In this document: piece after piece, positions 12,365 through 48,047 of the stretch
How the letters are laid out: each line of letters starts with the position of its first letter
How positions within the stretch are numbered: position 1 is the first letter of the stretch
From: an uncultured Opitutia bacterium
Lineage (GTDB): Bacteria; Verrucomicrobiota; Verrucomicrobiia; Opitutales; Coraliomargaritaceae
DNA length: 64,000 nt
Direction of reading: 5' to 3'
Assembly: GCA_937136395.1 (NCBI GenBank)
Contig: CAKZOI010000046.1
Coordinates: forward strand, 1-64,000
Notes under the pieces: model-generated
What the model was told of the DNA's origin: nothing
Databases searched by the model: none
The model's input: the letters and a program-made list of their open reading frames with translations, nothing else
Made by a program: the position numbers and the translations under genes

Positions 12365-13801
12365 ATGTCCCCCTACAAATCAATAAACACGATTTTCCTT
12401 TGGCTTTTCCTTGCTGGCACCCTTCACCTTTTACTGCCGAACCCTACCCATGCTCGAGAGCTTGAACGAATGGAATATAGCACGCTCGATGCCGAAGCCC
12501 TTACCTACGCTAGGGGCCCCGCGGCTAGGTTTGCTACTATAATCAACGGTAAGACGCACCAGCAATCACCGCTCACGACTTTTCGAGGGTACCAGTATGG
12601 GACCTATTTCGATGCAGAGCGCCGTGTCTGTCTTGCTCGACGAAAGTTACCATCAGGCGAGTGGGATGTCATACACTTCGAGGACCATCGCATGGAAAAG
12701 AATGATTCTCACAACACCGCAGTGGTTGGAATCTGCAAAAAGGATGGCACGATACACATGGCCTTTGATCACCACGCCGATCCGCTCAACTATCGAGTCT
12801 CAAAAATAGGCGTCGCCCTTCATCCAGACAGTGTCGAATGGAACGCAGATCTTTTTAGTGGAGTCCTGCACTCGCTCGGTGATGCGGCCACTCCAACGCG
12901 TCTGACGTACCCTCGCTTCTTCCCTGCTCCAAACGGCAATCTTATGCTGTATTATCGCTCAGTCACCTCCGCCAACGGAGATGGCATGATTCAAGAATAC
13001 GATGGCGATCTGCATCAATGGACACCTGGTCTGGGAAAATTCATCGCACGTGACATAGGCGTATACACCGACGGCAAGCGAAAAAGTAAATTCCGCTGCC
13101 CCTACATCAATGGAATTAGCTACTCTGGTGACCGGCTACATGTTTCTTGGGGATGGCGTGATCGATTTGAGAAAACGCTGATGCAAAACAATCACGATCT
13201 CTGCTACGCCTATAGCGACGATGATGGCCGCACGTGGCACAACTCCGATGGCAGTGTTATCGGCAAAACAGGCGAGTCTCCGATCCATCTTAACTCACAC
13301 GGACTCGTCGTCGCAGACATCCCAACAAATCATGGCCTCACCAATCAAAACGGCCACTACGCCTACCCAGACGGACGTGTTCACGTAATCCTGCTTCACA
13401 AGAGTGATACCGGCAAAGGCACCAGTTACCATCACTACTGGAGGACACGCAGCGGCGAGTGGAAGTCTCAAACGCTAGGCTTTAAAGGAAGTCGCCCTAA
13501 AATCATCGGCGACGATACTGGCACACTGTATTTGATTCATAGCTTCAATGATAAAGTACGCATCGCCAAAGGCATCCCCAATCGATATGGCACCAGCTAT
13601 ATCTGGTCTGCAGTCAAACCAACTAGCAAACAGCAACTGTGCGAAGCGGAACCACTGATTGATATGGAGCGCTGGGAGCTTGAACAAGTGATGTCGATCT
13701 ATGCGCAAGAACGACCTGAAAAAATCATCCGCACGAATCTACCAGGCGCGATTGATGGTATGCCTAGCCCCTTAAATGTGGTTGATTACTACTTCAAGTA
13801 A
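12365..13801 (+). CDS. Secreted BNR_4 beta-propeller, probable ulvan lyase (PL24/PL25-like)
   Basis: A 478-residue exported protein: residues 1-30 are a signal peptide (FLWLFLAGTLHLLL, cleavage near HA-RE). The rest is a BNR_4-type seven-bladed propeller, the fold and Pfam family of PL24 and PL25 ulvan lyases, which cleave between sulfated rhamnose and uronic acid by beta-elimination. H116 in DSHNTAV, H136 in AFDHHADP, Y182 in LTYPRFF and R198 in LMLYYRS have spacings that match the catalytic His/His/Tyr/Arg set I recall for PL25 (20 residues His-His, 16 residues Tyr-Arg). Typical blade motifs YPRFFPAPNG and SDDDGRTWHNSDG are present. It is the first gene of the island. Uncharacterised BNR_4 proteins with other activities exist, so lyase activity is inferred. 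Confidence 0.72.
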   Translation: MSPYKSINTIFLWLFLAGTLHLLLPNPTHARELERMEYSTLDAEALTYARGPAARFATIINGKTHQQSPLTTFRGYQYGTYFDAERRVCLARRKLPSGEWDVIHFEDHRMEKNDSHNTAVVGICKKDGTIHMAFDHHADPLNYRVSKIGVALHPDSVEWNADLFSGVLHSLGDAATPTRLTYPRFFPAPNGNLMLYYRSVTSANGDGMIQEYDGDLHQWTPGLGKFIARDIGVYTDGKRKSKFRCPYINGISYSGDRLHVSWGWRDRFEKTLMQNNHDLCYAYSDDDGRTWHNSDGSVIGKTGESPIHLNSHGLVVADIPTNHGLTNQNGHYAYPDGRVHVILLHKSDTGKGTSYHHYWRTRSGEWKSQTLGFKGSRPKIIGDDTGTLYLIHSFNDKVRIAKGIPNRYGTSYIWSAVKPTSKQQLCEAEPLIDMERWELEQVMSIYAQERPEKIIRTNLPGAIDGMPSPLNVVDYYFK

Positions 13802-14376: not shown

Positions 14377-17300
14377 ATGAACAACAATAAGCTCCTAATC
14401 ATCGTCCTTGCCTTCATTCTTCTGGTTGCCGATTTATCCGCTTATAAAGTCTGGCTAGGAACCCATAAATGGGAGGGCTCCGGTGCCGACAATCTAGATC
14501 AATGGGACATGGTGCTCGATAAAATCGAAGGCATCAACTACGTATTGCTCGATGCCCGACCGAATAGGCCGACTGGTGAGGGAGCGACTGCCAGCGACTG
14601 GGATACCATGATCGGGGAGATCGATCAGTCCATTCCCGGCATGGCCGAAATTGCACGCTCTCAATACTCACCTGCAAAGAATCTAAGCTTAGACTCCAGG
14701 ATGCAAAACGAGTTTGCAACGGTTGAAAACAGAGGTGCCGTGATTGATATTATAATGCTCTACGACGAGGAGCGCGATGGCACCGTTTATAAGTTTACCC
14801 TTGCGGATGCTCAAGAGGTTCGTGACTGGCTGGATAACAATGGGCAAGCACATGTTAGCCTTTGCTTTAACCTTCGGAACAATGACCAGGAACGCTTAGC
14901 ATTGGCGCAGAATCCGATCTTTGACAGCGTGATGATTGAAGCGAGTGCTACCCGATGGGTGGAAGATCGCTTTAATGTGCATACGCTACTACAGGATTTA
15001 TGGACAGATCCCAGCACGCGCGATAAGACGATCTATTTTCAAATTCCGCGCAGTGAATCGCCTGGCACTCTCAATCAACGCGGCGGCGTCCCCTCTTCTC
15101 CCATGAATCAATATGTCGAGACCCGACGAGCCTTGTGGGTGATCAAAGACCTCATGGGCGATGAGTTCATGCGCAGCGATCAAGTTGTTTTTATCGTTTG
15201 TAACTATAGTGATACCTACGACACGTATCCAGAAACCGCGAGCAATGACACTCTCTATGTAAACACCAAGTCAGGCCTTGCCCTTTCCCTGATTGAGCAG
15301 CGACTCATTTTCGAGGGCCGCACGGGCGTGGTGAACGAAGCTTTATGCACCAGCTACGATCGCTACGAAGTCAGCCTTGGCCCCGATTCTGGCCTAGTCG
15401 CCCATTGGCCTTTGGACGAAGGTTCGGGAACCGTCGCAGCAGATGCATCAGGCTACAGCTACGACGGAGCTCTCTTGAACGGCGCATCCTGGGGCAGTGA
15501 CGGCACCCGCAGCTCGTATGTCAGCTTCGACGGCACCGATGACCGCATCGCGACAGCCTTCAATTACGCGCTGTCCGACACCGACGACTTTACCTGGGCT
15601 TGGTGGGCCAAGAAAGAAGCAACCTCACATTCTGGTTCCATCATGGTCGGCAACCGCTACGGTGGCACTGGCTCCGAAAGCTTGGAGTTCATCAAGTTTA
15701 TGCCAAACAAGGCAGCATTCGCCGATACGGGATCTGCTGCCAATATCGAAGATTATAATTACAGCGACCTGCCCTCGAACCAGTGGCACCACTACGCCAT
15801 GGTCAAAGACGGCACCAGCTATCAATGGTATGTCGACGGCGTGGCTCAAGGTTCCCCCGTCACGATCAACTATAACGAGACCTCCCCTCTCCCATTCCTC
15901 ATTGGTGGCGATGACGATGGCACGGGAACAAAGGTAAATGAACACTTTGAAGGCTGCATCGACGATGTCGTCCTTTATCGCAGCGCACTAACTCCGCAAG
16001 AGGTCAACAATGTCATTAACGGAATTTATGATCCAATCGTCACTATGATAGACCTAGGTTCGCCAGCCAATTCGACAGATGGCAGCACATGGTCGGACGG
16101 CGAGCCTGCTCATGGCGGCGCACTCTATGTGATCCCCGCCACAGGAAACCTACGAAGTGAATTAGGTGGATCGACCTTCCCCGGAACTTCATTAACTGTG
16201 GAAGCTGGCGGCAAGTTTCAAGTTCGCTCACTCGACTCAGATGGTGACGCCACCATCGTCAACAATCTGATTCTGGCCGGTGGACCGAGTTTCGGTGCGG
16301 GGCAATTTGCTGAGCTGGCAGCAGGCACAGGCACTAATGATGCAAATGTATTAAATGGCACCATCTTCCAATCCGGAGCCACACGCTTGATCACCTACAG
16401 TGGAGCCATTGCTCGTAGCCTAATCATACGTTCTCAGATCAGCGGTAATGGAACCCTACAAGCCGTCGGCGAAGGCGTCACAATTACCAATGACAGCAAT
16501 ACCTTCTCTGGCACTTGGGATACAAGCACCTCACTGATCTTCAACAGCGGCGGCGCCGTCGGCACAGCAGATGTCGAGGTGCAATCTGGTGGCAGTTTAG
16601 AAATCAAAGGTAGTTGGATCCAAAATGCAGCACTCACCGTGGCCGACACTTCAGGCACCGTAATAAAAGTAGGTTCGTATGGATGGAAGGTCTCGAGTCT
16701 AACTCTTGGAGGCAGCAGTATCGCAGATGGCATTTACACTCCCTCCGAGTTAGACGCACTAGGCAATGCACAATTCTCAGGAACAGGTCGCATCACCGTA
16801 GGCACACCTGTTTTCAACCAGGAAATCATTGCTGGCTGGGATGTCTGGAGCAGCAGCAGCGCTCCCGTCGCGAATGTGACTGGCTCTGGGATCACCGCAA
16901 CCGCGACAGCGTCTACAGCCTCAGGAAATTGGAGCATTTCTGACGACGATGGTCGCGGCTCCAGCGGCGATACCACGTGGGGAACTTTCGATGGGAATAC
17001 GACACCAGCCAGTTCCGTCACATCTGGCACTGGGGCAAACATGGCAGCCCTAAACGGCGTCACCACCGCGCAAATCACACTCACGATCACTAATAACAGC
17101 GAAGCGGATTGGGAGTTGGATGCGTTTCACATGGATGCGGTCGCATTCCGCAGCAATGCACCAAGAGCCTACGAACTGGAAGTGCTCAGTGGATCCATCA
17201 CCAATGGTGTCGTTTTCACTTCAACAGATGATGAAATTAACGAAGTTGGAGGCACTCTTTCTGGCAACCACGATCAGCATGATCAGATCGACGTAAGCCT

Positions 17301-17841
17301 CCTAGGGCTCGCGGACTCGACCCTCGATGCAAGGGGAACGGTGGTTATCAAAATTACGTTCTCGAGTGGAACAGGCTCTGGCGGTGGGCATCACTTGTTC
17401 TTAGACAATGTCGCAGTGAGCGGCGTGCTGAGCCCAGTGAATGAGCTGCAGAACTGGCGCTATGAATATTTTGGAACGGTTGAGAACATAAGCACCGCAG
17501 CCAATAGCTACGATGCGAACTTCGACGGCGAGAGCAACCTGCTCGAATTCGCTACCGCCCAAGACCCGCAAGCAAACACTCTGGTCGCCACTCCAGTGGA
17601 GCTGAATGTCGGCGACTTTGAGTTCCGCTATGCCCGCAGTACAGCAGCACTCGACAGTGGAGTCACCTTCACCGTCAAGTGGAGCGACACCCTCCTTCCC
17701 GGCTCATGGAGCTCTGTAGGTGTTGTCGATGCCCTCAATACCGAAAACCCTGGCACCAGCGACGTCGAAAACCGAGTCGTTACCATACCAGAGGGAACGA
17801 ATGGCAAACGTTTTGCGCGCTTGGAAATCTCCGCACCTTAA
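14377..17841 (+). CDS. Giant secreted protein: novel N-terminal domain + LamG + beta-rich repeats
   Basis: A 1154-residue exported protein. Signal peptide 1-22 (LLIIVLAFILLVADLSA). Residues about 23-335 form a domain I do not recognise, shared with the next gene: YKVWLG at the mature N terminus, QEVRDWLDNNGQAHV, FNLRNN, IEASATRWVE, and EALCTSYDRY at the end. Residues about 340-550 are a LamG/concanavalin module (LVAHWPLDEGSG, DDFTWAWWAK, WYVDGVAQG). Residues 555-808 are passenger-like beta repeats, 818-1020 an AGWD...HHLFLDN sandwich common in Verrucomicrobiota exports, and 1025-1154 a tail with an EF-hand-like loop (DANFDGESNLLEF) ending in EGTNGKRFARLEI. It probably binds or cleaves a polysaccharide; the activity of the first domain is unknown. 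Followed after 42 nt by its paralogue. Confidence 0.85.
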   Translation: MNNNKLLIIVLAFILLVADLSAYKVWLGTHKWEGSGADNLDQWDMVLDKIEGINYVLLDARPNRPTGEGATASDWDTMIGEIDQSIPGMAEIARSQYSPAKNLSLDSRMQNEFATVENRGAVIDIIMLYDEERDGTVYKFTLADAQEVRDWLDNNGQAHVSLCFNLRNNDQERLALAQNPIFDSVMIEASATRWVEDRFNVHTLLQDLWTDPSTRDKTIYFQIPRSESPGTLNQRGGVPSSPMNQYVETRRALWVIKDLMGDEFMRSDQVVFIVCNYSDTYDTYPETASNDTLYVNTKSGLALSLIEQRLIFEGRTGVVNEALCTSYDRYEVSLGPDSGLVAHWPLDEGSGTVAADASGYSYDGALLNGASWGSDGTRSSYVSFDGTDDRIATAFNYALSDTDDFTWAWWAKKEATSHSGSIMVGNRYGGTGSESLEFIKFMPNKAAFADTGSAANIEDYNYSDLPSNQWHHYAMVKDGTSYQWYVDGVAQGSPVTINYNETSPLPFLIGGDDDGTGTKVNEHFEGCIDDVVLYRSALTPQEVNNVINGIYDPIVTMIDLGSPANSTDGSTWSDGEPAHGGALYVIPATGNLRSELGGSTFPGTSLTVEAGGKFQVRSLDSDGDATIVNNLILAGGPSFGAGQFAELAAGTGTNDANVLNGTIFQSGATRLITYSGAIARSLIIRSQISGNGTLQAVGEGVTITNDSNTFSGTWDTSTSLIFNSGGAVGTADVEVQSGGSLEIKGSWIQNAALTVADTSGTVIKVGSYGWKVSSLTLGGSSIADGIYTPSELDALGNAQFSGTGRITVGTPVFNQEIIAGWDVWSSSSAPVANVTGSGITATATASTASGNWSISDDDGRGSSGDTTWGTFDGNTTPASSVTSGTGANMAALNGVTTAQITLTITNNSEADWELDAFHMDAVAFRSNAPRAYELEVLSGSITNGVVFTSTDDEINEVGGTLSGNHDQHDQIDVSLLGLADSTLDARGTVVIKITFSSGTGSGGGHHLFLDNVAVSGVLSPVNELQNWRYEYFGTVENISTAANSYDANFDGESNLLEFATAQDPQANTLVATPVELNVGDFEFRYARSTAALDSGVTFTVKWSDTLLPGSWSSVGVVDALNTENPGTSDVENRVVTIPEGTNGKRFARLEISAP

Positions 17842-17883
17842 AACTACAAACACTTGCTTCAACGATCAACCCATCGCCCTACG

Positions 17884-20800
17884 ATGAAACAATATATCAA
17901 AAGAAACATAAGGCAATTACTCACGGCTCTGTGCTTATTCGCTCTGTCTAGCACGAGTGCCATCGCCTACGACGTGTGGCTTGGTTTACCCTACTTTCCA
18001 AAGGGAGCGGACAGCACACTTAAGGATCAATGGGAATTGACCGCTCCGATGCTTGGCGGACTCAATCCCAATCTTTCGCAAACAAAAACACCTGTGGACG
18101 AAAGAAATACCACGACTGACTGGAAGAATATCATTCAGTTGATGCCAACGGCCAAAAACAATGCGATGTTCCCAATGCCGAGAACCCACTTCAACTACGG
18201 GACGAGAACCGATAGAGGGACACTGGCAGAGTATTTAGTCAGGACATTCAAAAACGAGCCAAGATATGGGTATAAAGTAAAATGGGTCATGCCCTTTGAT
18301 AATCAACCGGGTGAAGATCGAACCTTACCAATCCAGCAATGGACCGATGCCCAACTTCAGGAGTTAAGGGATTGGCTGGATAATAATGGGCATGCGAATG
18401 TTCGAATCATCACCAATGTTCGAAATAACGGAGCCGGTCCTAGAGCCAACGTGCAGAAGGCCATCATGGAAGGCTATTCCATTGAAGCAAGAGCGACTTT
18501 GTGGTTTGAAAACAACGGGCGCCGGCAGGATTTTCTGAAATGGGCACTCAGCACAAACTCAGTCAAAGATAAGCATGTTAAGTTTCAGATGCCTTTTGGA
18601 CGACACCTTGCAGGCTATGGTTTTCCTACAATGGATGGCTATCAGGCGATGCGTGTATGCATGCGCTGGTTGGTTGCCGATGTGCTAGAAGGCGATCTAG
18701 ACTTCATCCGTCGTGATGATGTGACATTTATGTCGATCGTCTATGATCCCGGTGAGCATTTTCCGGAAAAATCGGTCGATGGAACCGCATACGAAAATAC
18801 CGTTTGCTCAGTGCTACTCTCCATTATGGAGCAGCAAGCCTTGTTTGACGGAACTGCTCCGGGCGGCTTGATCACGGAAGCGCAAGCCATGAGTTATGAT
18901 CGGATCATCGTTCCAACCACACCGCCAGGTCCAGACCATGGCTTGGTCGCCCACTGGCCGTTGGACGAAGGAACAGGTGACACCGCGGAAGATGCCACAG
19001 GCTACAGTCCCGACGGCACGCTGCGCTACGGTGCGTCATGGGGCAGCGATGCGACGCGCGATTCCTATGTGTCTTTTGATGGCAACGACGACCGAATCGA
19101 CACGGGCTTCACTTATGCCCTCTCGGATACAGACGACTTCACCTGGGCATGGTGGGCTAACAAACAAAGCCCTAGTAACTTGGACGGCGCTGCCGTCATG
19201 GTCGGCAATCGATATGGCGGCACTGGCTCGGAGAGTTCTGAGTTTATCAAGATGACGGCTAGACAGGCAGAATTTACCAACGGTAGCAGCGAAAACTACA
19301 ACTATGCCGATATTGCAACTGGTGGTTGGCACCACTATGCAATGGTCAAATCGGGAACCAGTTACCAGTGGTATGTCGACGGCGTTGCGGAAGGGCCACC
19401 CGTCACGATCAACTACAATGAAACCTCTCCCCTCCCTTTTAAAATCGGCGGTGACGACGACGATAACACTCCTGGTGGAAAAGAGATTCAGCACTTCCAA
19501 GGTTACATTGACGATGTCCTGCTCTATCGTAGTGCACTGACTCAGCAGGATATTGCTAATGTCATTAACGGTAATTACGACCAGACGATCACCATGGTCA
19601 CACTGGGAACGCCAGCAGATTCAACTGCAGGCAGCACATGGTCGGACGGCGCTCCCGCACACGGCAACGCACATTACACGATTCCTGCCACTGGTAATTT
19701 ACGAGGTGAATCCGGCACATCGACGTTCCCAGGAACCTCATTGACTGTTGAGGCTGGCGGCAAATTCCAAGTGCGGGCGCTCGATAGCTCGGATGAAGCC
19801 ACCACAGTGGACAACCTGATCTTGAGCGGAGGTGCTGGATTTGGTGCGAGACAATTTGCCGAACTGGCAGCTGGAACTGGCAACAATGAAATCAACCTAC
19901 TCAACGGCACAATCACCCAATCCGGAGCCACGCGCTTAGTCACCTATGGAGGGTCGACTAATCGACGCTTGAAGGTCGCTTCAAGAATCAATGGTTCTGG
20001 AACGCTGCAACTTGTCGGCGAAGGGGCTATCATTGATAATGAAGGCAACACCTTCTCTGGAACATGGGAAGTCGCCACGGGCGCAACGCTAACCTTTTAC
20101 AATGCGGGTAGTGTTGGTTCAGCCGATATCGACGTCGAGAATGGCGGCCATTTGATTATACAGGGCAATTGGGACATCGGAGCCGAATTAACGGTCGCCG
20201 ACGCTTCAAACACCACGGTCGATTTAGGCAATTATGCTTGGACCGTTTCGAATTTGATCTTCGGCGGTTCACCTGTAACTGGAGGTATCTATACCGCATC
20301 CGCGTTAAATGCCTTGGGATCAAATGCTGTGTTTACCGGCAGCGGCATCATCCGCGTCCTGCCTCCTGGAACCATCTTTAAATCGGCTAGCTTCGATACT
20401 GCCGGAACCACTTCATGGATATGCCCAGAAGGCGTCACCTCCATTCAAGTAGAATGCTGGGGGGGCGGCGGTGCAGGAGGAAGCTCTTCCACCACAGGTG
20501 CCGCGCAAGTTTATGTGGCTGGCGGCGGCGGTGCAGGAGGTGCCTATGCGAGAAAATCCATTATTCCAGTGACACCGGGTAACGCATATCCGGTAACGAT
20601 TGCCCCTGCGGCAGTCGCATTGAGTCCAAGCACTGCCTCGACAGGTGATCGTGTCAACGGAGCCGACATCAGCTTTACCGGCGACAATAGCATCACCGTT
20701 TTAGCCAAAGGCGGACAAGGTGGACAATGCGTGATCAACCCTGCACAAACTCAAGGCGGCATTGGCGGTGCGGGCACGACTACGGGTTCCATTAGCGATG

Positions 20801-22233
20801 GAACTGGATTTGTTTATGCAGGCGGAGACGGCTACTTCCCACCCACCAAAGGAGGCTCCGGCGGCGGTGGTGCTGGCAATTCCGAGGACGGAGGGGACGG
20901 CTACCTCGAAGATATTGACGATGCTGATTCTGCCTCACTACCGGGAGCAGGTGGCGAACAAGGCGGCGGCGAAGGTGGCACCGGAGCCGCAAACGTTGGA
21001 AACGGCGGCAATGGATTCAGCCCCGGCGGTGGCGGCGGTGGCGCTCGAACTGGTAGATTTGTTGTCTCTTCAGGTGCGGATCTTCAGAAAGTTGGCGGCA
21101 ATGGCGGATTGGGCAAAATCATTATTTCCTACATCGTATTACCCGACTACAACACCGTAGATCCGAACGCACCGATCGCCCATTGGAAACTCGATGATGG
21201 CAACGGCAAAAATACCACCGACTCTTCGGGCAACGGCCATACCGGCTCATTACTCTATGGAGCCAACTGGAGCAGTGATGGCACACGCGAGTCATTCGTT
21301 TCCTTCGACGGCAACGACGACCGCATCTCCACCTCCTTCACCTATGCGCTGTCCAGCAGCGACGACTTCACCTGGGCGTGGTGGGCGAAACAGCAGAGCA
21401 CGAGCGGTGACAACGGTGCGATCATGGTAGGCAACCGCTACGGTGGCACGGGCTCGGAAAATTTAGAGTTCATTAAATTTATGCCGATCAAGGCCGCTTT
21501 TTCCAACACCAGTGATGCAGGACAAATCGAAGATTACGACTACACTAAAATCACCCCAAATCAATGGCACCACTACGCCATGGTCAAAACCGGCAACAGC
21601 TACCAGTGGTATGTTGACGGCATCGCGCAAGGCTCCCCTGTCACGATCAACTACAACGAAACCACTCCGATCCCCTTCAATATCGGCGGAGACGACGATA
21701 ACGAAACTCCCGAAGGCCGCGAGAATGAACACTTCGAAGGATTCATCGACGACGTCGTGCTCTACGATCGTGCACTGAGTGCGCGTGAAATCCAGAACCT
21801 AGGCGCTGGTATCTATATCTCACCACCGACCACGGCGCAAGAAGACTGGCGTATGCTCCACTTCGGCACACTTGAAAACACAGGCACCGCAGCTGACAGC
21901 TACGATGTGAACTTCGACGGTGAGCTCAATCTAATGGAGTTTGCCACTGCTCAAGACCCACGCGCAAACACTCTGGTCTCCACACCGATCGAGATGAATG
22001 GCGGCGATCTCGATTTCAGCTACACCCGAAGCAAGGCAGCGCTCAACAGTGGCGTCAGCTTTATCGTCGAATGGAGCGATACACTCTTGCCAGATTCATG
22101 GAGCACCGCAGGCGTCGTCGATGCAATCGACAGTGAAAACCCTGGTGACAGCGAAATTGAAAACCGTGTCGCCACCGTCCCCGAAGGAAGCACTGGCAAG
22201 CGCTTCGTCCGACTCAGAGTCTTACAACTGTAA
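17884..22233 (+). CDS. Giant secreted paralogue: novel N-terminal domain, two LamG modules, Gly-rich region
   Basis: A 1449-residue protein from ATG 17884; the frame also opens at a TTG 30 nt earlier. Signal peptide LLTALCLFALSSTSAIA. Residues about 28-350 are homologous to the unrecognised domain of the preceding gene (YDVWLG, LRDWLDNNGHANV, NVRNNG, IEARATLWFE, EAQAMSYDR). Then come LamG at about 354-562, beta repeats to 825, a glycine-rich segment 829-1087 (WGGGGAGGSS and repeated GGxGG), a second LamG at 1094-1310, and the shared EF-hand-like tail (DVNFDGELNLMEF...STGKRFVRL). The glycine-rich region resembles those of bacterial surface or adhesin proteins. Probably in one operon with the previous gene. 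Function of the N-terminal domain unknown. Confidence 0.85.
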   Translation: MKQYIKRNIRQLLTALCLFALSSTSAIAYDVWLGLPYFPKGADSTLKDQWELTAPMLGGLNPNLSQTKTPVDERNTTTDWKNIIQLMPTAKNNAMFPMPRTHFNYGTRTDRGTLAEYLVRTFKNEPRYGYKVKWVMPFDNQPGEDRTLPIQQWTDAQLQELRDWLDNNGHANVRIITNVRNNGAGPRANVQKAIMEGYSIEARATLWFENNGRRQDFLKWALSTNSVKDKHVKFQMPFGRHLAGYGFPTMDGYQAMRVCMRWLVADVLEGDLDFIRRDDVTFMSIVYDPGEHFPEKSVDGTAYENTVCSVLLSIMEQQALFDGTAPGGLITEAQAMSYDRIIVPTTPPGPDHGLVAHWPLDEGTGDTAEDATGYSPDGTLRYGASWGSDATRDSYVSFDGNDDRIDTGFTYALSDTDDFTWAWWANKQSPSNLDGAAVMVGNRYGGTGSESSEFIKMTARQAEFTNGSSENYNYADIATGGWHHYAMVKSGTSYQWYVDGVAEGPPVTINYNETSPLPFKIGGDDDDNTPGGKEIQHFQGYIDDVLLYRSALTQQDIANVINGNYDQTITMVTLGTPADSTAGSTWSDGAPAHGNAHYTIPATGNLRGESGTSTFPGTSLTVEAGGKFQVRALDSSDEATTVDNLILSGGAGFGARQFAELAAGTGNNEINLLNGTITQSGATRLVTYGGSTNRRLKVASRINGSGTLQLVGEGAIIDNEGNTFSGTWEVATGATLTFYNAGSVGSADIDVENGGHLIIQGNWDIGAELTVADASNTTVDLGNYAWTVSNLIFGGSPVTGGIYTASALNALGSNAVFTGSGIIRVLPPGTIFKSASFDTAGTTSWICPEGVTSIQVECWGGGGAGGSSSTTGAAQVYVAGGGGAGGAYARKSIIPVTPGNAYPVTIAPAAVALSPSTASTGDRVNGADISFTGDNSITVLAKGGQGGQCVINPAQTQGGIGGAGTTTGSISDGTGFVYAGGDGYFPPTKGGSGGGGAGNSEDGGDGYLEDIDDADSASLPGAGGEQGGGEGGTGAANVGNGGNGFSPGGGGGGARTGRFVVSSGADLQKVGGNGGLGKIIISYIVLPDYNTVDPNAPIAHWKLDDGNGKNTTDSSGNGHTGSLLYGANWSSDGTRESFVSFDGNDDRISTSFTYALSSSDDFTWAWWAKQQSTSGDNGAIMVGNRYGGTGSENLEFIKFMPIKAAFSNTSDAGQIEDYDYTKITPNQWHHYAMVKTGNSYQWYVDGIAQGSPVTINYNETTPIPFNIGGDDDNETPEGRENEHFEGFIDDVVLYDRALSAREIQNLGAGIYISPPTTAQEDWRMLHFGTLENTGTAADSYDVNFDGELNLMEFATAQDPRANTLVSTPIEMNGGDLDFSYTRSKAALNSGVSFIVEWSDTLLPDSWSTAGVVDAIDSENPGDSEIENRVATVPEGSTGKRFVRLRVLQL

Positions 22234-24072: not shown

Positions 24073-25563
24073 ATGAAACAAGCCCCTAAACACTTCACTC
24101 GAATTCTGCGCCTAATTGCCACAGCACTATTCCTATCCGCTTCGTCTTTAATCGCGGGATCTAGTAACGATAAAAACGTGCTCATCTTCTTCATCGATGA
24201 CTTACGCCCTGAGCTCGGGTGTTACGGGGTGGACTATATCAAGAGTCCAAACATTGATCGTTTAGCAGACTCCGGTGTTGTTTTTGATCGAGCTTATTGC
24301 CAACAGGCACTGTGCGGTCCCTCGCGCATCAGCATGATGTCTGGAATGTATCCGCACACATCAGGGGTCATGGATTTGTGGACGCCGCTCACCAAAGCCA
24401 TTCCCAATGCGATGAGTTTGCCGCGTTATTTCAAGGAGCGCGGTTATAAAACTTTTTCATACGGGAAAGTCTATCATCACACACGTGATGATACAGGTAG
24501 TTGGACAGAGCTCATGCCGAAACTCACCGTAAAATACGCTAATCCAGCAACACTTCAGGGGATTAAAGACCGCGTGGCGGAAGGAGAAAAAAAGGGCCTA
24601 AGCATTGATGAGATTCGAATTCTGGGCAAAGGTCCGGCCGTTGAGAGTGCGGATGTCGCGGACAATGCGTATCCTGATGGACAGATCGCGGATAAGGCAG
24701 TTGAATCCCTGCGTAAGCATAAAAACGAACGCTTTTTCATGTGTGTAGGTTTCCCAAAACCACATCTGCCGTTTGCAGTACCGAAGCGCTATTGGGACCT
24801 CTACGAGCGTGACCAATTTGAAGTACCCAAGAAAGTGCGCCCCGAGGGAGCACCCTCTCTAGCCTTCACTGTCTGGGGCGAACTCCGCGGCTACCGCGGG
24901 ATGCCGAAAGACGGTCTTTTAACCGATAAGTTAACTCGTGAACTGAAGCATGGCTACGCCGCATCGGTAAGTTATATGGATGCTCAAGTCGGGAAAGTCA
25001 TGGCTGAACTGAATCGTCAGGGACTGCGTGACAACACCATCGTTGTTTTTTGGGGCGACCACGGATGGAAGCTCGGTGAATACGGCACCTGGTGCAAACA
25101 CACCAACTTCGAGCTCGACGCTGAAGTGCCTTTAATCATTTCCGCTCCGGGTTTTGCAAAGGGTGAGCGTTCCGGTGCACTGGTTGAAATGATCGATATT
25201 TTCCCGACCCTGGCGACACTCACCGGTGGAGCAATTCCAGAGTCTTGCGATGGCATGAGCATGGAGCCAATCCTGAAAGATCCATCCAAGGAATTCCGCC
25301 CCTATGCCCTGACGATGTATCCACGCGGATCGGTCACTGGATTTAGTATGAACGATGGCCGCTGGCGTTACACCGAGTGGATTCACAAGCCGACCAAAGA
25401 AATAAAATGGCGCGAACTCTACGACCACAAAGACTCATCTGTCTCCCATATAAACGAGGCAAGCAATCCGGAATATGCGAGCCTCATCGCCTCGCTATCC
25501 GAGCAATTGAACTCCCGTAAATTGATCGAAACCAAGCCCCTGCGAAAAGACAAAAAGAAGTAG
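24073..25563 (+). CDS. Secreted sulfatase, iduronate-2-sulfatase-like (S1 family)
   Basis: A 496-residue formylglycine sulfatase. Signal peptide about 1-28 (IATALFLSASSLIAG). The metal-binding IDDLRPELGCYG follows at 41-52, and the maturation motif C81-GPSR, in which Cys81 must be converted to formylglycine, continues as ISMMSGMYP. Further family segments are FSYGKVYHH, GFPKPHLPFAVP and FWGDHGWKLGEYG. The overall pattern is closest to the iduronate-2-sulfatase-like subgroup (S1_7 in SulfAtlas terms, tentative). It would remove sulfate esters from the polysaccharide or its oligosaccharides in the periplasm. No maturase gene is seen in this window. Confidence 0.93.
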   Translation: MKQAPKHFTRILRLIATALFLSASSLIAGSSNDKNVLIFFIDDLRPELGCYGVDYIKSPNIDRLADSGVVFDRAYCQQALCGPSRISMMSGMYPHTSGVMDLWTPLTKAIPNAMSLPRYFKERGYKTFSYGKVYHHTRDDTGSWTELMPKLTVKYANPATLQGIKDRVAEGEKKGLSIDEIRILGKGPAVESADVADNAYPDGQIADKAVESLRKHKNERFFMCVGFPKPHLPFAVPKRYWDLYERDQFEVPKKVRPEGAPSLAFTVWGELRGYRGMPKDGLLTDKLTRELKHGYAASVSYMDAQVGKVMAELNRQGLRDNTIVVFWGDHGWKLGEYGTWCKHTNFELDAEVPLIISAPGFAKGERSGALVEMIDIFPTLATLTGGAIPESCDGMSMEPILKDPSKEFRPYALTMYPRGSVTGFSMNDGRWRYTEWIHKPTKEIKWRELYDHKDSSVSHINEASNPEYASLIASLSEQLNSRKLIETKPLRKDKKK

Positions 25564-26020
25564 GTCCGATCGAATTAAACTTTTGGAAACACGGCATTTA
25601 TAACGACCTCGCTACGTCAGTGATGTTCTCGGCTGTGATTATCTTGCCATACACAGGTAGAGGATCGTTTCATTACTATTCTTAAAGGCAATGAAGACAA
25701 ACCCTTCTTGCGACGCAGGGTCAACCCCTGTTCGTCACTGAAAGGATCTAACTAAAAATAGACTATTTTTTACCCCGAACTCGCGAAGTTCTATTTCTGG
25801 CTATGCACTAACAGTGATTCAAGTGGTTTCGCGCAAATTGCCATTCAATCATTGAGTCTGCCTGAATTACATTGATCTCCGCCTTGACTACGGGACAAAC
25901 GCCAGCAACTTTGTAATGAAACCATACAAAGTTAATCTGTGGTGCTATTGGAATATATCCCTCTATTAGTCTCTACCATTGATCGAGCCGAATAAACCGC
26001 CACAGAATCACACATTGAAA
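25564..26020. other. 457-nt non-coding stretch
   Basis: No gene, no strong hairpin with T-run. A 5-bp stem GAACT/AGTTC occurs at about 25782-25796. Presumably contains the promoter of the downstream CBM-like/nucleoside-hydrolase-like gene. Confidence 0.55.
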
Positions 26021-27982
26021 ATGAACTGTAATAAACTATTAGCCCTCGCACTACTCGTGACAGCCACCGTTGCTTCGGCACAGACGTATAATGAAAGCGG
26101 AGGTCTCGTAGTGATTGAAATGGAAGATACCTCCTCTCCACTGGGTCATTGGCAAGAGCAGTCATCACTCTCAGGTCATTCGGGAGATGGCTACCTGCAG
26201 TTTCTTGGAAACAGCTACTTAAATGGGCCTGCCGCATCGCCACTTGAATTCACCTTCAAGATCAACCAAGCGGGCCTCTACTACCTACATCTACACTGCG
26301 CAAAGGAAACTCATGTTATCGAGGGTGAGACACGCACCGATGTGGCGAATGACTGCTATGTCCGAGTAGAGGGCGACTACACCGCAGGTCCCAATGCTGG
26401 CGACAATCATGGTGACAATGCCACGCTCTCTCTGCTAACGCGTGATACGAAGTATTTCGGAGGTGCCACGGATAAATGGAAATGGGAAAACGGTCAAAAC
26501 TCATCCGGAGGTGCTGGAAATCTCGACCCTGGAGGGCATCGCAACAAACGAGTCGCCGTCTATAATTTCAAGGCGGGCGAAACCTACAAGTTGGTAATTT
26601 CAGGACGTTCAAAGGCTTTCAGAATCAACCGTATCGTCTTTCGTCATGCCAACGCAGATAAGGCGACCGCGCAAAACCTAAACACACCGGAATCAGATAT
26701 GATCGCAGACAGTATCTCTAGTATCGTTTACGACGCTAGAGATGATTTCATCAACACCACGAACGGCGACGTTCCATACTATCAAGACAAGGGTAACAAC
26801 GTACTCGGCATTGCTGCCAACATTGTAGCCAACCGAACTGGCTTTGCACGTGCTTCACGCACCTTCGATGGAGCCACTGGCAGTTACGATGTGACCATTA
26901 CCACGATGACCGAGGAAGACGGTGAGTCCATTTACCGTTTGCTCGTCAACGGCACTAAAGTCGCCACTTACACAAACCCTTACGTCGGGCCAGGTTCACC
27001 ACTCGACCTACAACCGAACACGCACACTTGGTCGGGCATTTCCATTCCAAATGGTGCCACCATCGCCATTGAATCAAATGCCGACACCAACGGTAAAATT
27101 CCAGAAGACGGCGGTAGCGCATGGGCACGTGGTCGTTGGCGCCAAATCGAATTTTCAACAAGCACAGAACTGATCAAACCACCCGCAGGTCGGATCGCTG
27201 TGATAGCAGACGGTAATTCTCCCGACCCAGATGATATTGGTGCCAATGCTGTCATTTTAGGTCTGCTGAAAGGCGCTGGCTTACAAGACCGTCTCGTTCA
27301 CTTCTCCCACTCTTGTGACCTTGACCCTTTCACCAATCCAGGGCGTCAAAAAATTGACGTTACAAATGAGCTGCGGCGTCAAAAGAAGTTGCACGCGCTC
27401 TCTGGAGAGGGCATTGGATTTTTTGGTCCATTTCCAAATCTTTCTAATTACTTCAACTGGCGTACCGAAGTGGTCGGCGATTATAATCCAATGGCCCTAA
27501 ATGATCTGCGTGATGCCATCAATGCTTCTTCGGCAAGCGATCCGCTCTGGATTATCGAAGCTGGCGAACCGGACGTTATCGGCTATGCACTTAATGCCGC
27601 AATGCCTTCCAAACGTCAATACGTCCACGTCGTCTCACACCACCCTGCCAACGACAACAGCGGTGATTTTTATACATGGCAACAGATCCTAGACTTCGGA
27701 ATTACCGAACACCAAATCGGCGACCAAAATGTCGGTTTACAAGTCCGTATAAGCTCTGGTCACTGGGACTGGATCGAAGGTCACAGTAATCCAGCTATGG
27801 TATGGATTTTAAATCAATTGAAATATGCCGAAGCTGACGGCGTCGTCGGCTTTCAAAGCAACAAATACGACTGCTCCGACGCGGGCATGGTCTACTGGTG
27901 GATTAGCGGTGCCACAGAGGGTGGCAACAAGCATGCCACACCAAACGAAATCAAGAACATACTACTCAACGCACTGAATTGA
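26021..27982 (+). CDS. Secreted protein with CBM-like and nucleoside-hydrolase-like domains (truncated paralogue)
   Basis: 653 residues from ATG 26021, with signal peptide LLALALLVTATVASA. Residues about 22-215 are a CBM-like beta-sandwich (VVIEMEDTSSPLGHW, GDGYLQFLG, GLYYLHLHC, FRINRIVFRH), followed by a second beta domain (ASRTFDGATGSYDVT, YRLLVNG). Residues about 385-653 resemble the nucleoside-hydrolase-like fold, with DGNSPDPDDIGANA in place of the DxDxxxDD calcium motif, and WIIEAGEPDVIGYAL and HVVSHHPANDNSGDF later. Substrate unknown; exported members are probably carbohydrate-active. It is very similar to the first 650 residues of the next gene. It stops where that protein continues into LamG, and LamG-coding remnants remain after the stop, so this copy is shortened. 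Confidence 0.8.
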   Translation: MNCNKLLALALLVTATVASAQTYNESGGLVVIEMEDTSSPLGHWQEQSSLSGHSGDGYLQFLGNSYLNGPAASPLEFTFKINQAGLYYLHLHCAKETHVIEGETRTDVANDCYVRVEGDYTAGPNAGDNHGDNATLSLLTRDTKYFGGATDKWKWENGQNSSGGAGNLDPGGHRNKRVAVYNFKAGETYKLVISGRSKAFRINRIVFRHANADKATAQNLNTPESDMIADSISSIVYDARDDFINTTNGDVPYYQDKGNNVLGIAANIVANRTGFARASRTFDGATGSYDVTITTMTEEDGESIYRLLVNGTKVATYTNPYVGPGSPLDLQPNTHTWSGISIPNGATIAIESNADTNGKIPEDGGSAWARGRWRQIEFSTSTELIKPPAGRIAVIADGNSPDPDDIGANAVILGLLKGAGLQDRLVHFSHSCDLDPFTNPGRQKIDVTNELRRQKKLHALSGEGIGFFGPFPNLSNYFNWRTEVVGDYNPMALNDLRDAINASSASDPLWIIEAGEPDVIGYALNAAMPSKRQYVHVVSHHPANDNSGDFYTWQQILDFGITEHQIGDQNVGLQVRISSGHWDWIEGHSNPAMVWILNQLKYAEADGVVGFQSNKYDCSDAGMVYWWISGATEGGNKHATPNEIKNILLNALN

Positions 27983-28577: not shown

Positions 28578-31500
28578 ATGAAAATTAATTGTATCAAACG
28601 ATTAGCACTCGCGCTATTCGCTACGACCGCCATTGCTTCAGCACAGACTTATAATGAAAGTGGCGGCCTCGTAGTAATGGAAGTGGAAAACACGCCCTCC
28701 TCACTAGGGCTATGGCAGGAAGAAAGCTCACTCTCCGGCTATTCAGGCTCTGGATACCTTCGCTTTCTGGGAAATACCTTCGAGACTGGCCCCGCAACCT
28801 CCCCACTTGAATACACCTTTAAGATCAATCAAGCGGGTCTTTATTACTTACATCTGCATTGTGCCAAAGAAATCCATGAGGGACGAAACGATGTGGCCAA
28901 TGACTGCTATGTGCGCGTTGAGGGGGACTACAATGCAGGACCTGGACCGTATACTAATCACGGCGACAACGCCTCGCTTTCCTTACTGCAAAGTAACACC
29001 AAGTATTTCGGCGGAGCTGTCAATAACTGGAAGTGGGAAAACGGCCAAAACTCATCTGGTGCTCAAGGCAATCTCGATCCCGGCGGACATGCCAACAAGC
29101 GGGTCGCCGTCTACGACTTCAAGGCAGGCGAAACCTATAAGCTAGTCGTTTCAGGACGTTCCAAGTTCTTCAGAATCAACCGTATCGTCTTTCGCCATAC
29201 GAACACTGCACAGTCTACCGCTCAAAACCTTAACACGCCAGAGTCACAAACCATAACAGGTGGTGGCTCTAGTATCGTTTACGACGCCATTGATGATTTC
29301 TCCAATATCACCAACGGAGACGTTCCCTACTATCAAGACAACGGTAACGACGTGTTAGCAATCGCGGCAAATATCGTTGACAACCGCACCGGTTTCGCTC
29401 GGGCATCACGCACCTTCGGTGGAGCCACCGGTAGCTACGATGTGACCATCACTACGATGACTGAAGAAGACGGCGAATCGACCTACCGCTTACTGGTTAA
29501 TGGAACCCCTGTCGCCACCTATATTAACCCTTACATCGGCCCAGGCTCTCCACTTGACCTGCAAACAAATACACACACGTGGTCAGGAATCGCCGTAACA
29601 AACGGAGACACCATCGCCATCGAATCGAATGCCGACACCAACGGTGAAATTCCAGAAACAGGTGGCACCGCATGGGCTCGGGGCCGTTGGCGCCAAATCG
29701 AATTTTCGACAAGCACAAACCTAGTCAAACCACCCGCTGGTCGGATCGCCTACGTCGCCGACGGTAATTCGCCTGACCCAGACGACATCGGGGCAAATGC
29801 AGTTGTATTAGGACTTTTGAAAGGCGCTGGTCTACAGGATCGTCTCGTGCATTTCTCAAATTCCTGTGATCTCAATCCATTAGCCACTGGTGGAAGCCAA
29901 ACTATTGACGCCGCGAATGAACTACGTCGCCAGAACAAGTTGCACACGCTCACTGGCGAAGGCATCGGATTTTTCGGACCGTTCCCGAACCTTACTGATT
30001 ACTATAACTGCCGAACTGAGCAAACTGCAGCCGTCAATGATCTTCGCGACGCCATTAATGCTTCTTCAGCAAATGATCCGCTCTGGATTGTGGAAGCCGG
30101 CGAACCTGACATAATCGGTTACGCACTCGATGCCGCCACCGCTTCCAAACGTCAATACGTCCACATCATTTCACACCACCCTGCTAACGACAACAGTGGT
30201 GACTTCTTCACTTGGCAGCAGATTCTAGACTTCGGAATTACCGAACACCAAATCGGCGACCAGAATGTCGGTCTTAAAGTGCTCATCAGCACCGGTCTCT
30301 GGGACTGGGCCGAGAACCATATCAACCCCGCCATGGTATGGATCTTAGATCAACTCAAGTATGCCGAAGCAGACGGTGTCGTCGCCTTCCAGGACAATCA
30401 TTACGACTGCTCTGACGCCGGAATGATTTACTGGTGGATCACTGGTGCGAATAACGGAGGAAACAAATTTTCCACACCAGTCGAAATCAAAGACATGCTG
30501 CTGAACGACCCCAATTCTGGCTTAGGCGATGTTACTTTTCCAGTAGCCCACTGGAAACTCGATGAAGGCAGTGGTATTATCGCCACAGACGCTTCAGACT
30601 ATGGTCACACAGGTGCACTTCTGAACGGTGTCACTTGGGCAAATGATGCGACCCGCGGCGTCTATGCTCAATTTGATGGCATCGATGATCGCATCTCAAC
30701 ACCATTTAGTTATGCACTCTCCTCCAGTGACGACTTCACTTGGGCATGGTGGGCGAAAAGCACGCTTCCCTCGACGGACACCACCCAGAAAGGTTCCATC
30801 ATGGTGGGCAATCGCTATGGAGCCACAGGTGAGCAGAATTTTGAATTCATCAAGCTCAAGCCCGATGGGGGAGCATTTGCAAACACCGATTCGATCAGTT
30901 CAATTGAGAGCTATGACTACACGGATCTTCCCTCCGATGAGTGGCACCACTACGCAATGGTGAAGAACGGTAATAGTTATCAATGGTATGTCGATGGTGT
31001 CGCCCAAGGTGCTCCTCAAACCATCAACTACAACGAAAGTTCATCAATTCCGGTTCTAATCGGCGGCGATGATGATGGCAGCGGCACTAAGGTGAACGAA
31101 CACTTTGAGGGCGGCATTGATGATGTGGTGCTGTATCAGCGCGCATTGACCACAAATGAGATTGTAGATGTCCAGAGCGGCATCTACTTCCCACCGCCCC
31201 CAGTCATTGAAATACTTGCAGGCTGGGATACTTGGGATAGTGCAACGACTCCAACAGCCTCCGTCACAGCAACGAATATATCTGCTACAGCGGCGACAAC
31301 GACTGCGCAACAAGATTGGGTTACTACAGATGAAAGAGGCGCTAGTAACGACGGCACATGGGGAAGCAATGCGAGTTCGCCTACTGCAAGCACGGCTATC
31401 GTTGATGGCGAAAACCTAACACTACCAAACGCAACAACTGACGGAACAATCACGCTAACAATCACGAATAATGGAGCAGAAGACATCGTCTTGGATGCAT

Positions 31501-34500
31501 TCCATTTTGATGCGTATGCCTTCCGTCCCAAGGCCGCAAGAACCTACGCCTTGAGCGTGCAAGCTGGCGGCGGCATAAGCGCAGGAACCGTATTCACTTC
31601 AGCAAACGACGCAATTACTAGTGTGGGAGGCACGAACAGCAACAGCGCACACGACGACATCGATATCGCGTTGGATGGACTCGCAGACCATACACTTGAA
31701 CCCGGTGAAGCCGTGCAATTCCTACTCGCTTTTTCAGGAGGTGACGGTGACGGATCTGGCGGGCATCACTTATTTTTGGATAACCTAGCCGTGACGCACT
31801 CCGTCACGACGACTCCGGTCTACGCACCTCAAGTCAATGCAGGATCGAATGTGTCCATCACCCTTCCTGAAAACCAAGTCGACTTGACTGGAACCGCTAT
31901 CGACAACGGAACAGTCGTTTCCTATCTCTGGACTCAGGAAGCTGGACCGAACACAGCCAGCTTGACCGGTGCGAACACCAACAACCTCTCTGCTGGAAAT
32001 CTAGTGCAAGGCACTTACACCTTCCGCCTGAGCGCCACCGATGATGAAGGTAACATCGGCACCGACGATGTCTCTGTAACAGTGATCGCTCAGGTAACAA
32101 CCTTTGCGGCAGTCACCTCGTATACCCTGATCAACGCAGATACCGATCAACCGGTTGCCGGATTCGATCCTATCCCGAATGGCTCAACGATCAGTAAAGC
32201 CTCCGTTGGAACAAGTTCCTTTAACATCCGTGTGAATACCTCACCCTCGACCGATTTCGGTAGTGTGATTATCGCCCTCTCGGGTGCCACCACAGAAAAC
32301 GTCACCGAAAGCATCCCGGTCTGGGCCTTGTTTGGCGACACCGCTGGTGATTATAAGCTAGGCGCACTGAATAATGGTGCACACACTCTGACTGCGACTC
32401 CGTATGACCAGGATAACGGCGCTGGCGATGCGGGAACACCGCTGACTATCAACTTTACCGTTGTGGACACCGACCTGGGACTACCTACAGTCAATGCAGG
32501 CCCTGATCAGGCGATCACCCTGCCCACCAGCTCGATCAACCTGTCCGGTAGCGCCAGTGACAATGGCTCCATAACTTCAACAGTCTGGACTCAACAATCT
32601 GGCCCCAACACCGCGGCATTGAGCCAACAAAACACGCTCAACCTGTTTGCATCTGGCCTCATCCAAGGCACCTATATCTTCCGCCTCACAGCCACGGACA
32701 ATGAAAGTAATACCGCCTACGATGAGGTTAGCGTAAACGTAATACCAGAGGGCGGTGGCAGCGCCGCGATCACTGGCGAGCTGAAAAAGTGGCATAAGGT
32801 TACCTTCTCCTGGAATGGCCCAAGCACCAGCGAAACGGCTGGAACGAATCCATTCAGTGACTATCGCCTCAACGTAACCTTTAGTCACGCTGGAAGCGGC
32901 AAGAGCTATACCGTGCCGGGCTACTTTGCTGCGGATGGAAATGCTGCTGAAAGCTCTGCTGATTCCGGAGATGTATGGCGTGCACACTTTGCACCCGACG
33001 AAATTGGTGAATGGACCTACAGCGTTTCATTCCGCACCGGATCAGATATAGCGATCAGCACTGTCGCAGGAGCTGGAGCTTCGGCGGGATCCTTCGATGG
33101 AGATTCTGGAACTTTCCAGATCACCGCGACTGACAAGACCGGACGCGATCTGCGTGGTAAAGGACGGCTTCAATACGTCGGCAAACACCACCTACAATTC
33201 GCGGAGACAGGCGAGTATTTCATCAAGGCTGGACCCGACGCACCTGAGAACTTCCTCGCATACGATGACTTCGATGGCACGCCAAACGATCAAAACAACC
33301 AGCCAAATCTCCGTAAATCATGGAGTCCTCATGCTGGAGATTATCACGCGGCTTCCGCATCACAATTCACTTGGCAAAGTGGTAAAGGCACCGAAATCCT
33401 CGGAGCGGTCCGCTACCTCGCTCAAGAAGGTCTAAACGTATTCTCCTTCCTGACTTTCAGTCTCGATGGAGATGACGACAACGTCTTCCCGCACCGCCTA
33501 AAGTCAACAGTGGCGGCCTATGAAGCTGTAGCCGACAACGGACGTTGGGCGAGTGCGAATGGCGTGTATCACGATCGCTTCGATATTTCCAAAATGGCAC
33601 AGTGGGAGCGCGTTTTCGAATATGGCACACAACAGGGCATGTATTTGCACTTCAAGACACAGGAAACTGAAAATGACGATCGCATGGACAGCGGTGAACT
33701 GGGTAGAGAACGAACACTCTATTACCGAGAACTCGTTGCCCGCTACGGTCACCACCTTGCACTGAACTGGAATTTGGGAGAGGAAAATACCAACAATGAT
33801 ACGCAGCGCAAGGCCTTCGCCCAGTGGTTTTACGACAACGATCCCTATCGCCACAACGTGGTGCTCCACACCTATCCCCTCGCGAAGAGCGCAGTCTACA
33901 CACCAATGCTTGGGGCAGCGTCCAAATTAACGGGCTTATCCCTCCAGACCAATCAGGCAGACTTCGTAAACGTCTTCCCTGACACCTTAACTTGGGTGCA
34001 GAACTCAGCAAGCGCTGGTGTGCCTTGGGTGGTCGCTTGTGACGAGCCAGGTGATGCGCAACACGCTCTTCGTCCTGCTGGCGACGAAGGAAACAGTTGG
34101 GTCGATGGACGCATCAACGCCCTTTGGGGTAATGTCATGGCTGGTGGTGCCGGAGTGGAATTCTACTTTGGTTATCAGCACGCCGAATCAGACTTAAATC
34201 TGCAAAATTTCAGATCCCGTGATGGTTTCTGGGATTACTGCCGCTTCATGATCCAGTTCTTCGAAAACAACAACGTCCCCTTCCAGGACATGAGTAATGA
34301 AAACGCCCTGTCCTCGAATGCCGACTCATGGTGTCTACGCAAGGCAGGCAGCCATTACATCGTTTATCTGAAGAACGGTGGCACCACCAATCTCGACCTA
34401 AGCGGCGCAACTGGTAACTTTGATGTCCGCTGGTATGATCCACGTAACGGCGGCGCACTTCAAAGCGGTTCGGTCACATCAGTGACGGGTGGCTCTACAG

Positions 34501-47357: not shown

Positions 47358-48047
47358 CTAGTCTTTCATCTTCAATTCGATAAGCTTCACGGTGTGTGCC
47401 GGAAGTGCGACGTTGAAGGCAAGCGCTCCATCATCACTCAAACTAATAGGACGCATCGATGCAGTCTGTTGCCGACGAGCAATCGCTTTGTATTTGTCGA
47501 AATTCTCCTCGATCACGGCTTTCCATCCATCGCCAAATCGTAAGTTGAAGTGAATCCCTAAATTTGCTGCATCTGGAAGCGTTTCGACTCCCGCTTTCTC
47601 ACAGTACTTATAAAACTCACGTATCCACTCAGCGTGTTGTCGATCAACCGTCCATTTGTTTGCAATCCATGGTCCACCACTGCTCGACCAACCTGCCGTT
47701 TGATGGTAACAGACCTCTAAGCCGAGACGATCGGCCTCTTGAATCGTATGCGTCATCAGCTCGCGCCATTCCTTACTCAGATATTTGATCGGCCCCTTAT
47801 CCATGAGCCGCTCAATCTGAAAGGCCTGAAATCCACCGATTCCAGTTCGCTGCATCGCTTCCAGATCTTTAGTGATCCCTTCAGCTGAAACATAGCCATT
47901 CATCCAGTGCCACCACGTGTGTGGCTTAGCTGAGTTCGGCGGCGATTGAAAGTTCTCCTGCAATGAGTCAGAAGCGGTCAGATTCGCCCTAGCCCCTCCC
48001 AGCCCAAGCAGAGAAACCGAGACAATACTTAAAAGTATCGTCTTCAT
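47358..48047 (-). pseudogene. Chimeric gene: GH106 N-terminal fragment joined to a GH39-type C-terminal module
   Basis: A 229-residue open frame from ATG 48047 with a signal peptide (ILLSIVSVSLLGLGGARA). Residues about 30-125 match the start of GH106 rhamnosidases: PNSAKPHTWWHWMNGYVS, GITKDLEAMQRTGIGGFQ and TAGWSSSGGPW. Directly after GGPWI the sequence switches to NKWTVDRQHAEWIREFY, LGIHFNLRFGDGWKAV and LPAHTVKLIELK, the same module as the end of the GH39 gene at 42004-43710. The GH106 catalytic barrel (about 1000 residues) and the GH39 barrel are both absent, so it cannot be an active rhamnosidase. The frame is intact, so a stable binding protein remains possible. Confidence 0.8.

Follow-up and report, generated by a model that had tools for sequence, protein, structure and literature searches.

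Near one end of a contig from an uncultured Opitutia bacterium (CAKZOI010000046.1, assembly GCA_937136395.1) two neighbouring genes encode very large modular proteins that begin with the same domain, and the question raised by this locus is what that domain does. The window, that is, the whole stretch of DNA analyzed, covers the first 64,000 nucleotides of the contig. Both genes lie on the forward (+) strand, at 14377–17841 (protein 1, 1154 amino acids) and 17884–22233 (protein 2, about 1450 amino acids); the open reading frame (ORF) of the second runs from 17854 to 22233 and begins with TTG, the earliest in-frame ATG being that at 17884. Henceforth we refer to the shared N-terminal region as the VWLG domain. 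The reading we favor, at a probability of about 45%, is that it is an exported, endo-acting glycoside hydrolase (GH), probably with a (beta/alpha)8-barrel fold; its catalysis, endo action, substrate and catalytic acids are what we infer.

Homology between the two domains extends end to end over ∼315 residues: blastp gave 32% identity and 49% positives in 342 columns (E 1e-40), and the local alignment score was 346, against a mean of 35 (standard deviation 5, maximum 56) in 500 shuffles. A common N-terminal domain of ∼310 residues had been proposed in a sequence-only reading of the window, and the alignment and shuffle test bear this out. The span given there (14446–18900) takes in the first domain and the remainder of protein 1 and reaches almost to the end of the second domain; the limits used here are residues 22–334 of protein 1 (14440–15378) and 38–355 of protein 2 (17965–18918). 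All anchors named in that reading are present in both translated ORFs: YKVWLG/YDVWLG, VRDWLDNNG/LRDWLDNNG, NLRNN/NVRNN, IEASATRW/IEARATLW and FQIP/FQMP (protein 1/protein 2), with SYDR in both. The modules said to follow the domain are also there. Laminin_G_3 matches protein 1 at residues 385–544 (15529–16008; E 7e-19 for the whole protein) and protein 2 in two stretches, the better at residues 1152–1314 (21307–21795); beta-rich stretches accompany these LamG modules in both proteins, and protein 2 carries a glycine-rich module. Both proteins are apparently exported, as judged from signal-peptide-like starts read by eye, and the earlier description of them as secreted and mature stands on that same by-eye feature.

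Within the VWLG domain neither window protein matches a Pfam or NCBIfam family above its cut-off: the matches of the full proteins that do exceed it fall in the LamG and glycine-rich parts. Extending the search to 11 members and to E 10 returned three Pfam families with one member each (best E 0.15) and six unrelated NCBIfam families with one or two members each (best 0.029). Profile searches of PDB sequences with 7 and 11 members gave only chance matches (best E 0.86 and 0.25, respectively). Shallow hhalign comparisons with GH71, GH99, GH39, GH106 and sulfatases all returned probabilities below 1%. GH71 and GH99 were considered as relatives on a presumed similarity in the start of the barrel, an impression taken as a lead only; the idea was not supported. 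For GH71 none of the 11 members matched PF03659 and the hhalign probability was 0.6% (P 0.11, 5 of 12 fetched loci aligned); for GH99 none matched PF16317 and the probability was 0.2% (P 0.38, 4 of 12 fetched loci aligned). The Pfam profile check proposed earlier, run for the domain, thus found no confident match to any family, and the statement that no GH, polysaccharide lyase or carbohydrate esterase family can be assigned holds as far as Pfam, NCBIfam and PDB sequences are concerned, where no credible match was obtained, also with 11 members. Among the titles and abstract openings listed from an open-access library no endo-rhamnanase of this kind appears, although papers on phage tailspike endo-rhamnosidases do.

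The domain is rare and patchily distributed among the genomes searched. Eleven full-length copies are found in seven genomes; these form the alignment used throughout, which excludes a broken copy in this genome and fragments in an eighth (G611). Besides the window pair, this genome contains a third copy further along the contig (101295–102269) and the broken one on contig C71 (6220–7152), which is spread across several reading frames; the stretch around the latter also has ORFs that appear transposase-like by eye. Elsewhere there are two copies in Haloferula rosea (G277), a member of the Verrucomicrobiota that is assigned to the class of the genome studied here, two in G593, and one each in G240, G307, G644 and G675. 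At E ≤ 0.001 the domain occurs in 4 of 387 genomes of the phylum, this genome included, and in 1 of 43 genomes of its family, namely this genome itself. It occurs in 7 of 386 genomes of the order of H. rosea and 7 of 260 of its family, in which four further genomes match only at E 0.04–0.43. Two of those four were inspected and dropped (one ORF was read as an integrase, the other was unrelated). Of the weak matches in genomes already positive, one precedes the genuine gene of H. rosea, one is a G611 fragment and one is in G593. A scan of genome contigs with just two strict peptide patterns found a single relative, that of H. rosea, so that the domain may also occur beyond the Verrucomicrobiota; no relative was found in viral contigs scanned with four alignments or in plasmids searched by tblastn.

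Eight of the 11 full-length copies stand at the front of long proteins (at least 1063 amino acids). The remaining three stand alone, as ORFs of 369, 367 and 341 amino acids, and the domain can therefore exist as a unit. Subgroups share 24–39% identity, and the window copies belong to different ones: copy 1 is nearest the broken copy (74–75%), copy 2 nearest the third copy and H. rosea (57–59%).

What the domain is linked to was examined in 10 stretches of 15–20 kb that surround other copies (the broken copy and a G611 fragment account for two of the 10) and in 20 control stretches that we spaced evenly in three of the same genomes, using tblastn queries; the test omits the window, the rest of its contig (L041–L043) and the 3 kb G611 contig (L044). 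Rhamnosidases were detected in 4/10 stretches and 0/20 controls (Fisher p 0.008). One of the queries, a GH78-like sequence, had been taken from the stretch with the third copy (L038), which is among the 10; without it the count is still 4/10. Proteins of the type encoded at 25979–27982 in the window were found in five of the 10 stretches and none of the controls (p 0.002), and BNR_4 proteins in three stretches and one control (p 0.1); taking rhamnosidases or BNR_4 together, the counts are 6/10 and 1/20 (p 0.002). None of these neighbours was found in the stretch around the broken copy (L039). Together with the sulfatase counts given below, these figures tie the domain to rhamnose degradation and not to sulfatases as such.

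Two other arrangements were seen in these stretches. Modular proteins with CotH-kinase and Lamin-tail modules occur in two other genomes (L031 4747–10191 and L033 6500–9811), and in G277 the BNR_4 protein forms a fusion (L032 4882–9021) with a C-terminal part resembling the one in window protein 2, directly upstream of a VWLG gene.

The window itself encodes a GH78, a second GH78 that is apparently split, two GH106, two GH39-like proteins, a GH2, two sulfatases (one at 24073–25563, + strand), RhaT and an AraC-type regulator. One GH39-like protein scores 536 bits against an alpha-1,4-L-rhamnosidase model, below the cut-off of 850. Adjoining the pair is a BNR_4 protein (12365–13801, + strand) whose best PDB match is an L-rhamnose-alpha-1,4-D-glucuronate lyase (E 5e-49); ulvan lyases match far more weakly (best 3e-8), and the score against an alpha-L-rhamnosidase model, 150 bits, is below the cut-off of 700. 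On the strength of the lyase match, the substrate is likely to contain rhamnose linked to glucuronate. This linkage occurs in ulvan and in arabinogalactan caps. The rhamnose-polymer context described in the sequence-only reading is thus present in its rhamnosidases, lyase-like BNR_4 protein and sulfatases, although elsewhere sulfatases are about as common in controls as near the domain.

A second unnamed family is represented by the protein at 25979–27982 (+ strand), which has no Pfam match, and by the N-terminal part of a giant protein at 28578–35531 (+ strand), which continues with LamG, PKD-like, DUF5060 and Collagen_bind_2 modules. In five other genomes homologues with 37–76% identity are found close to VWLG copies, and the DGNSPDPDDIGA motif of the family is, we presume, reminiscent of nucleoside hydrolases. 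As to the split GH78, adjacent minus-strand ORFs at 60699–61322 and 61319–62650 correspond to successive portions of a single GH78-type protein from another genome (L034). A 250-residue ORF at 47358–48110 matches only the start of the alpha-L-rhamnosidase model and looks like a remnant.

Within the domain 24 columns are invariant in the 11 members and include the motifs N-x-R, I-E, P-E and S-x-x-E-Q; in protein 1 numbering the invariant residues include N165, R167, R250, E188, E286 and E307, R94 is near-invariant (10/11), and no His is among the 24. As catalytic acids our best guess is a pair, Glu188 of the IE motif (14938–14940) and Glu286 of the PE motif (15232–15234), which correspond to Glu211 and Glu305 of protein 2. 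Glu307 of the S-x-x-E-Q motif (15295–15297) falls in a predicted helix and is a less likely candidate.

Constraint on the domain can be gauged by comparing the gene of the third copy (L038 6821–10342) with that of H. rosea (L007 9929–13474), leaving aside the 24-codon signal region, which is 29% identical. Identity in the domain reaches 95.8%, with a non-synonymous rate (dN) of 0.027 and a ratio to the synonymous rate (dN/dS) of 0.066; in the four module regions behind it identity is 71–81%, dN 0.13–0.24 and dN/dS 0.09–0.17. The neighbouring GH78-like enzyme is 79% identical between the two, the sulfatase 68% and the housekeeping S-adenosylhomocysteine hydrolase 76%.

Two AlphaFold2 models, built from three-row alignments, were poor: one has a predicted local distance difference test score (pLDDT) of 39.2 and a predicted template modelling score (pTM) of 0.42, the other a pLDDT of 45.5 and a pTM of 0.51. 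The better model shows an alternation of strands and helices, with six strands called. A second look at this model with VIA-align 2, at Foldseek's own top 1000 chains, placed glucocerebrosidases, triosephosphate isomerases, a GH5 mannanase and others in the top 50 rows (Z 7.5–8.2), all of which we take to be barrels. The models fit a (beta/alpha)8 barrel without proving it and are silent on family. The TIM-barrel expected in the earlier reading accordingly finds barrel-like models on its side, but models of low confidence.

Endo-glycosidase action appears most likely in light of the probable export, the LamG modules, the standalone versions and the company the domain keeps: the named rhamnosidase and lyase families of the locus are mostly exo-acting or lyase-like. 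In the proposed mechanism the domain would act outside the cell and cut a polysaccharide that contains rhamnose and uronate and may be sulfated, while the LamG and beta-rich modules would keep the enzyme attached to its polymer. Processing of the products would be completed by the rhamnosidases, lyase-like protein and sulfatases encoded nearby, before uptake by RhaT-type transport. The earlier suggestion of a new catalytic domain acting on a sulfated rhamnose polysaccharide is in this way upheld in part: the domain is unmatched and linked to rhamnosidases, but sulfatases are not enriched around it and its catalysis is something we infer.

Several observations count against an endo-acting barrel hydrolase. 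On the structural side, the pLDDT of both models is low, Foldseek gave no match at E 0.001 (best 0.0045), and, according to the output of VIA-align 2, Z below 8 may reflect only a common arrangement. Conserved polar residues are not enriched at the C-terminal ends of strands (4/26, permutation p 0.52), nor are they when two strands are placed by hand (7/26, p 0.19). In clan GH-A enzymes strands 4 and 7 each end in a catalytic Glu; in contrast, the residue after predicted strand 4 of the VWLG domain is D, N or G, with no fixed acid there, and the strand 7 position is Q or H in the 11 members, the strand places being those of a poor model. That an invariant Glu (Glu307) lies in a predicted helix means that invariance alone is no catalytic marker; where paired acidic residues were looked for, three invariant Glu were found, but the conserved polar residues showed no significant clustering at strand ends. 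The constraint is uneven: codons 101–200, inside the domain, have a dN/dS of 0.176, not below that of other regions. Moreover, dS is 0.41 in the domain and 0.75–1.55 in the modules behind it, so that recent exchange may add to the high identity; the domain segment may have been exchanged between lineages more recently than the rest. As to linkage, sulfatases were found in 4/10 stretches and 6/20 controls (p 0.7), the stretches are not independent (two are from this genome and two from G277), and around the standalone copies of L035 and L036 not one of the tested genes was found. Finally, the giant protein at 28578–35531, with its DUF5060 and Collagen_bind_2 modules, might itself hold an endo-enzyme or polysaccharidase, which makes the enzymatic gap uncertain.

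The alternative that survives best, though we consider it unlikely, is that the domain is a very distant member of a described TIM-barrel CAZy family that was missed by the libraries and tools used. Its best structural neighbours are ordinary barrels, and the profile was built on just 11 divergent sequences. The resemblance is to GH30 and GH5 of clan GH-A: the barrel-like alternation is shared, and the leading rows of VIA-align 2 include glucocerebrosidases (presumably GH30), SrfJ and the GH5 mannanase, at Z 7.6–8.2. However, no sequence match between these families and the VWLG domain was found, and both the 11-member library searches and the hhalign comparisons described above speak against a hidden relationship.

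It is distinctly less probable that the domain is a non-catalytic barrel, a carbohydrate-binding or scaffold module that recognizes the polymer and displays the LamG modules. Such a role would suit its position ahead of LamG in both window proteins and the location of many conserved polar residues in helices (RDWLDNNG, SLIEQRxxFEGR) instead of at strand ends. Against it stand the standalone copies, the invariance of N-x-R and three Glu in subgroups so divergent from one another, and a dN that is the lowest of the protein, to which recent exchange may contribute. An enzyme of other chemistry or linkage (such as a lyase, a carbohydrate esterase or a debranching exo-enzyme) is similarly improbable, for although a uronate or sulfate would be in keeping with N165 and R167, both invariant, and with the near-invariant R94, and although a GH10 and a 3-keto-disaccharide hydrolase are encoded in the related L031 stretch, the lack of an invariant His argues against common esterase and metal sites, and barrel-type polysaccharide lyases are rare.

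If the domain is an endo-acting hydrolase, its closest functional parallels would be found among enzymes that open up other methylpentose polymers. By analogy, its part in the locus would be that of the endo-fucoidanases in fucoidan loci: GH168 and GH107 fucoidanases cleave a sulfated methylpentose polymer internally, the kind of role expected here, and none of the six PDB sequences matched by the VWLG profile up to E 10 is named a fucanase or fucoidanase. Phage tailspike endo-rhamnosidases likewise cleave a rhamnose-containing polymer internally; their targets are bacterial O-antigens and their folds beta-helices. No tailspike appeared among the Pfam, NCBIfam and PDB-sequence matches of the 11 members, in searches that were not aimed at tailspikes.

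A bolder possibility, tentative and on balance doubtful, is that the VWLG domain founds a new family of carbohydrate-active enzymes: an endo-acting barrel hydrolase for rhamnose-rich (rhamnan- or ulvan-like) polymers that, together with the unnamed protein at 25979–27982, makes the first cut, one not obviously provided by the named rhamnosidases and the lyase-like protein of the locus. The locus resembles the rhamnose-polysaccharide loci of Verrucomicrobiota as described in the main text of PMC8857213, in which GH78 and GH106 lie amid sulfatases and GH2. None of the terms 'hypothetical', 'LamG', 'laminin' and 'unknown function' appears in that main text, and it gives no sign of a VWLG domain. 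According to the same paper, the sulfated methylpentose polymers that algae make resist degradation and could act as a carbon sink, and Verrucomicrobiota specialize in consuming them. Should VWLG prove to be the domain that first cuts a polymer of this type, a missing enzyme class would be named, metagenomes would gain a marker gene, and a tool would become available for the analysis of ulvan and rhamnan.

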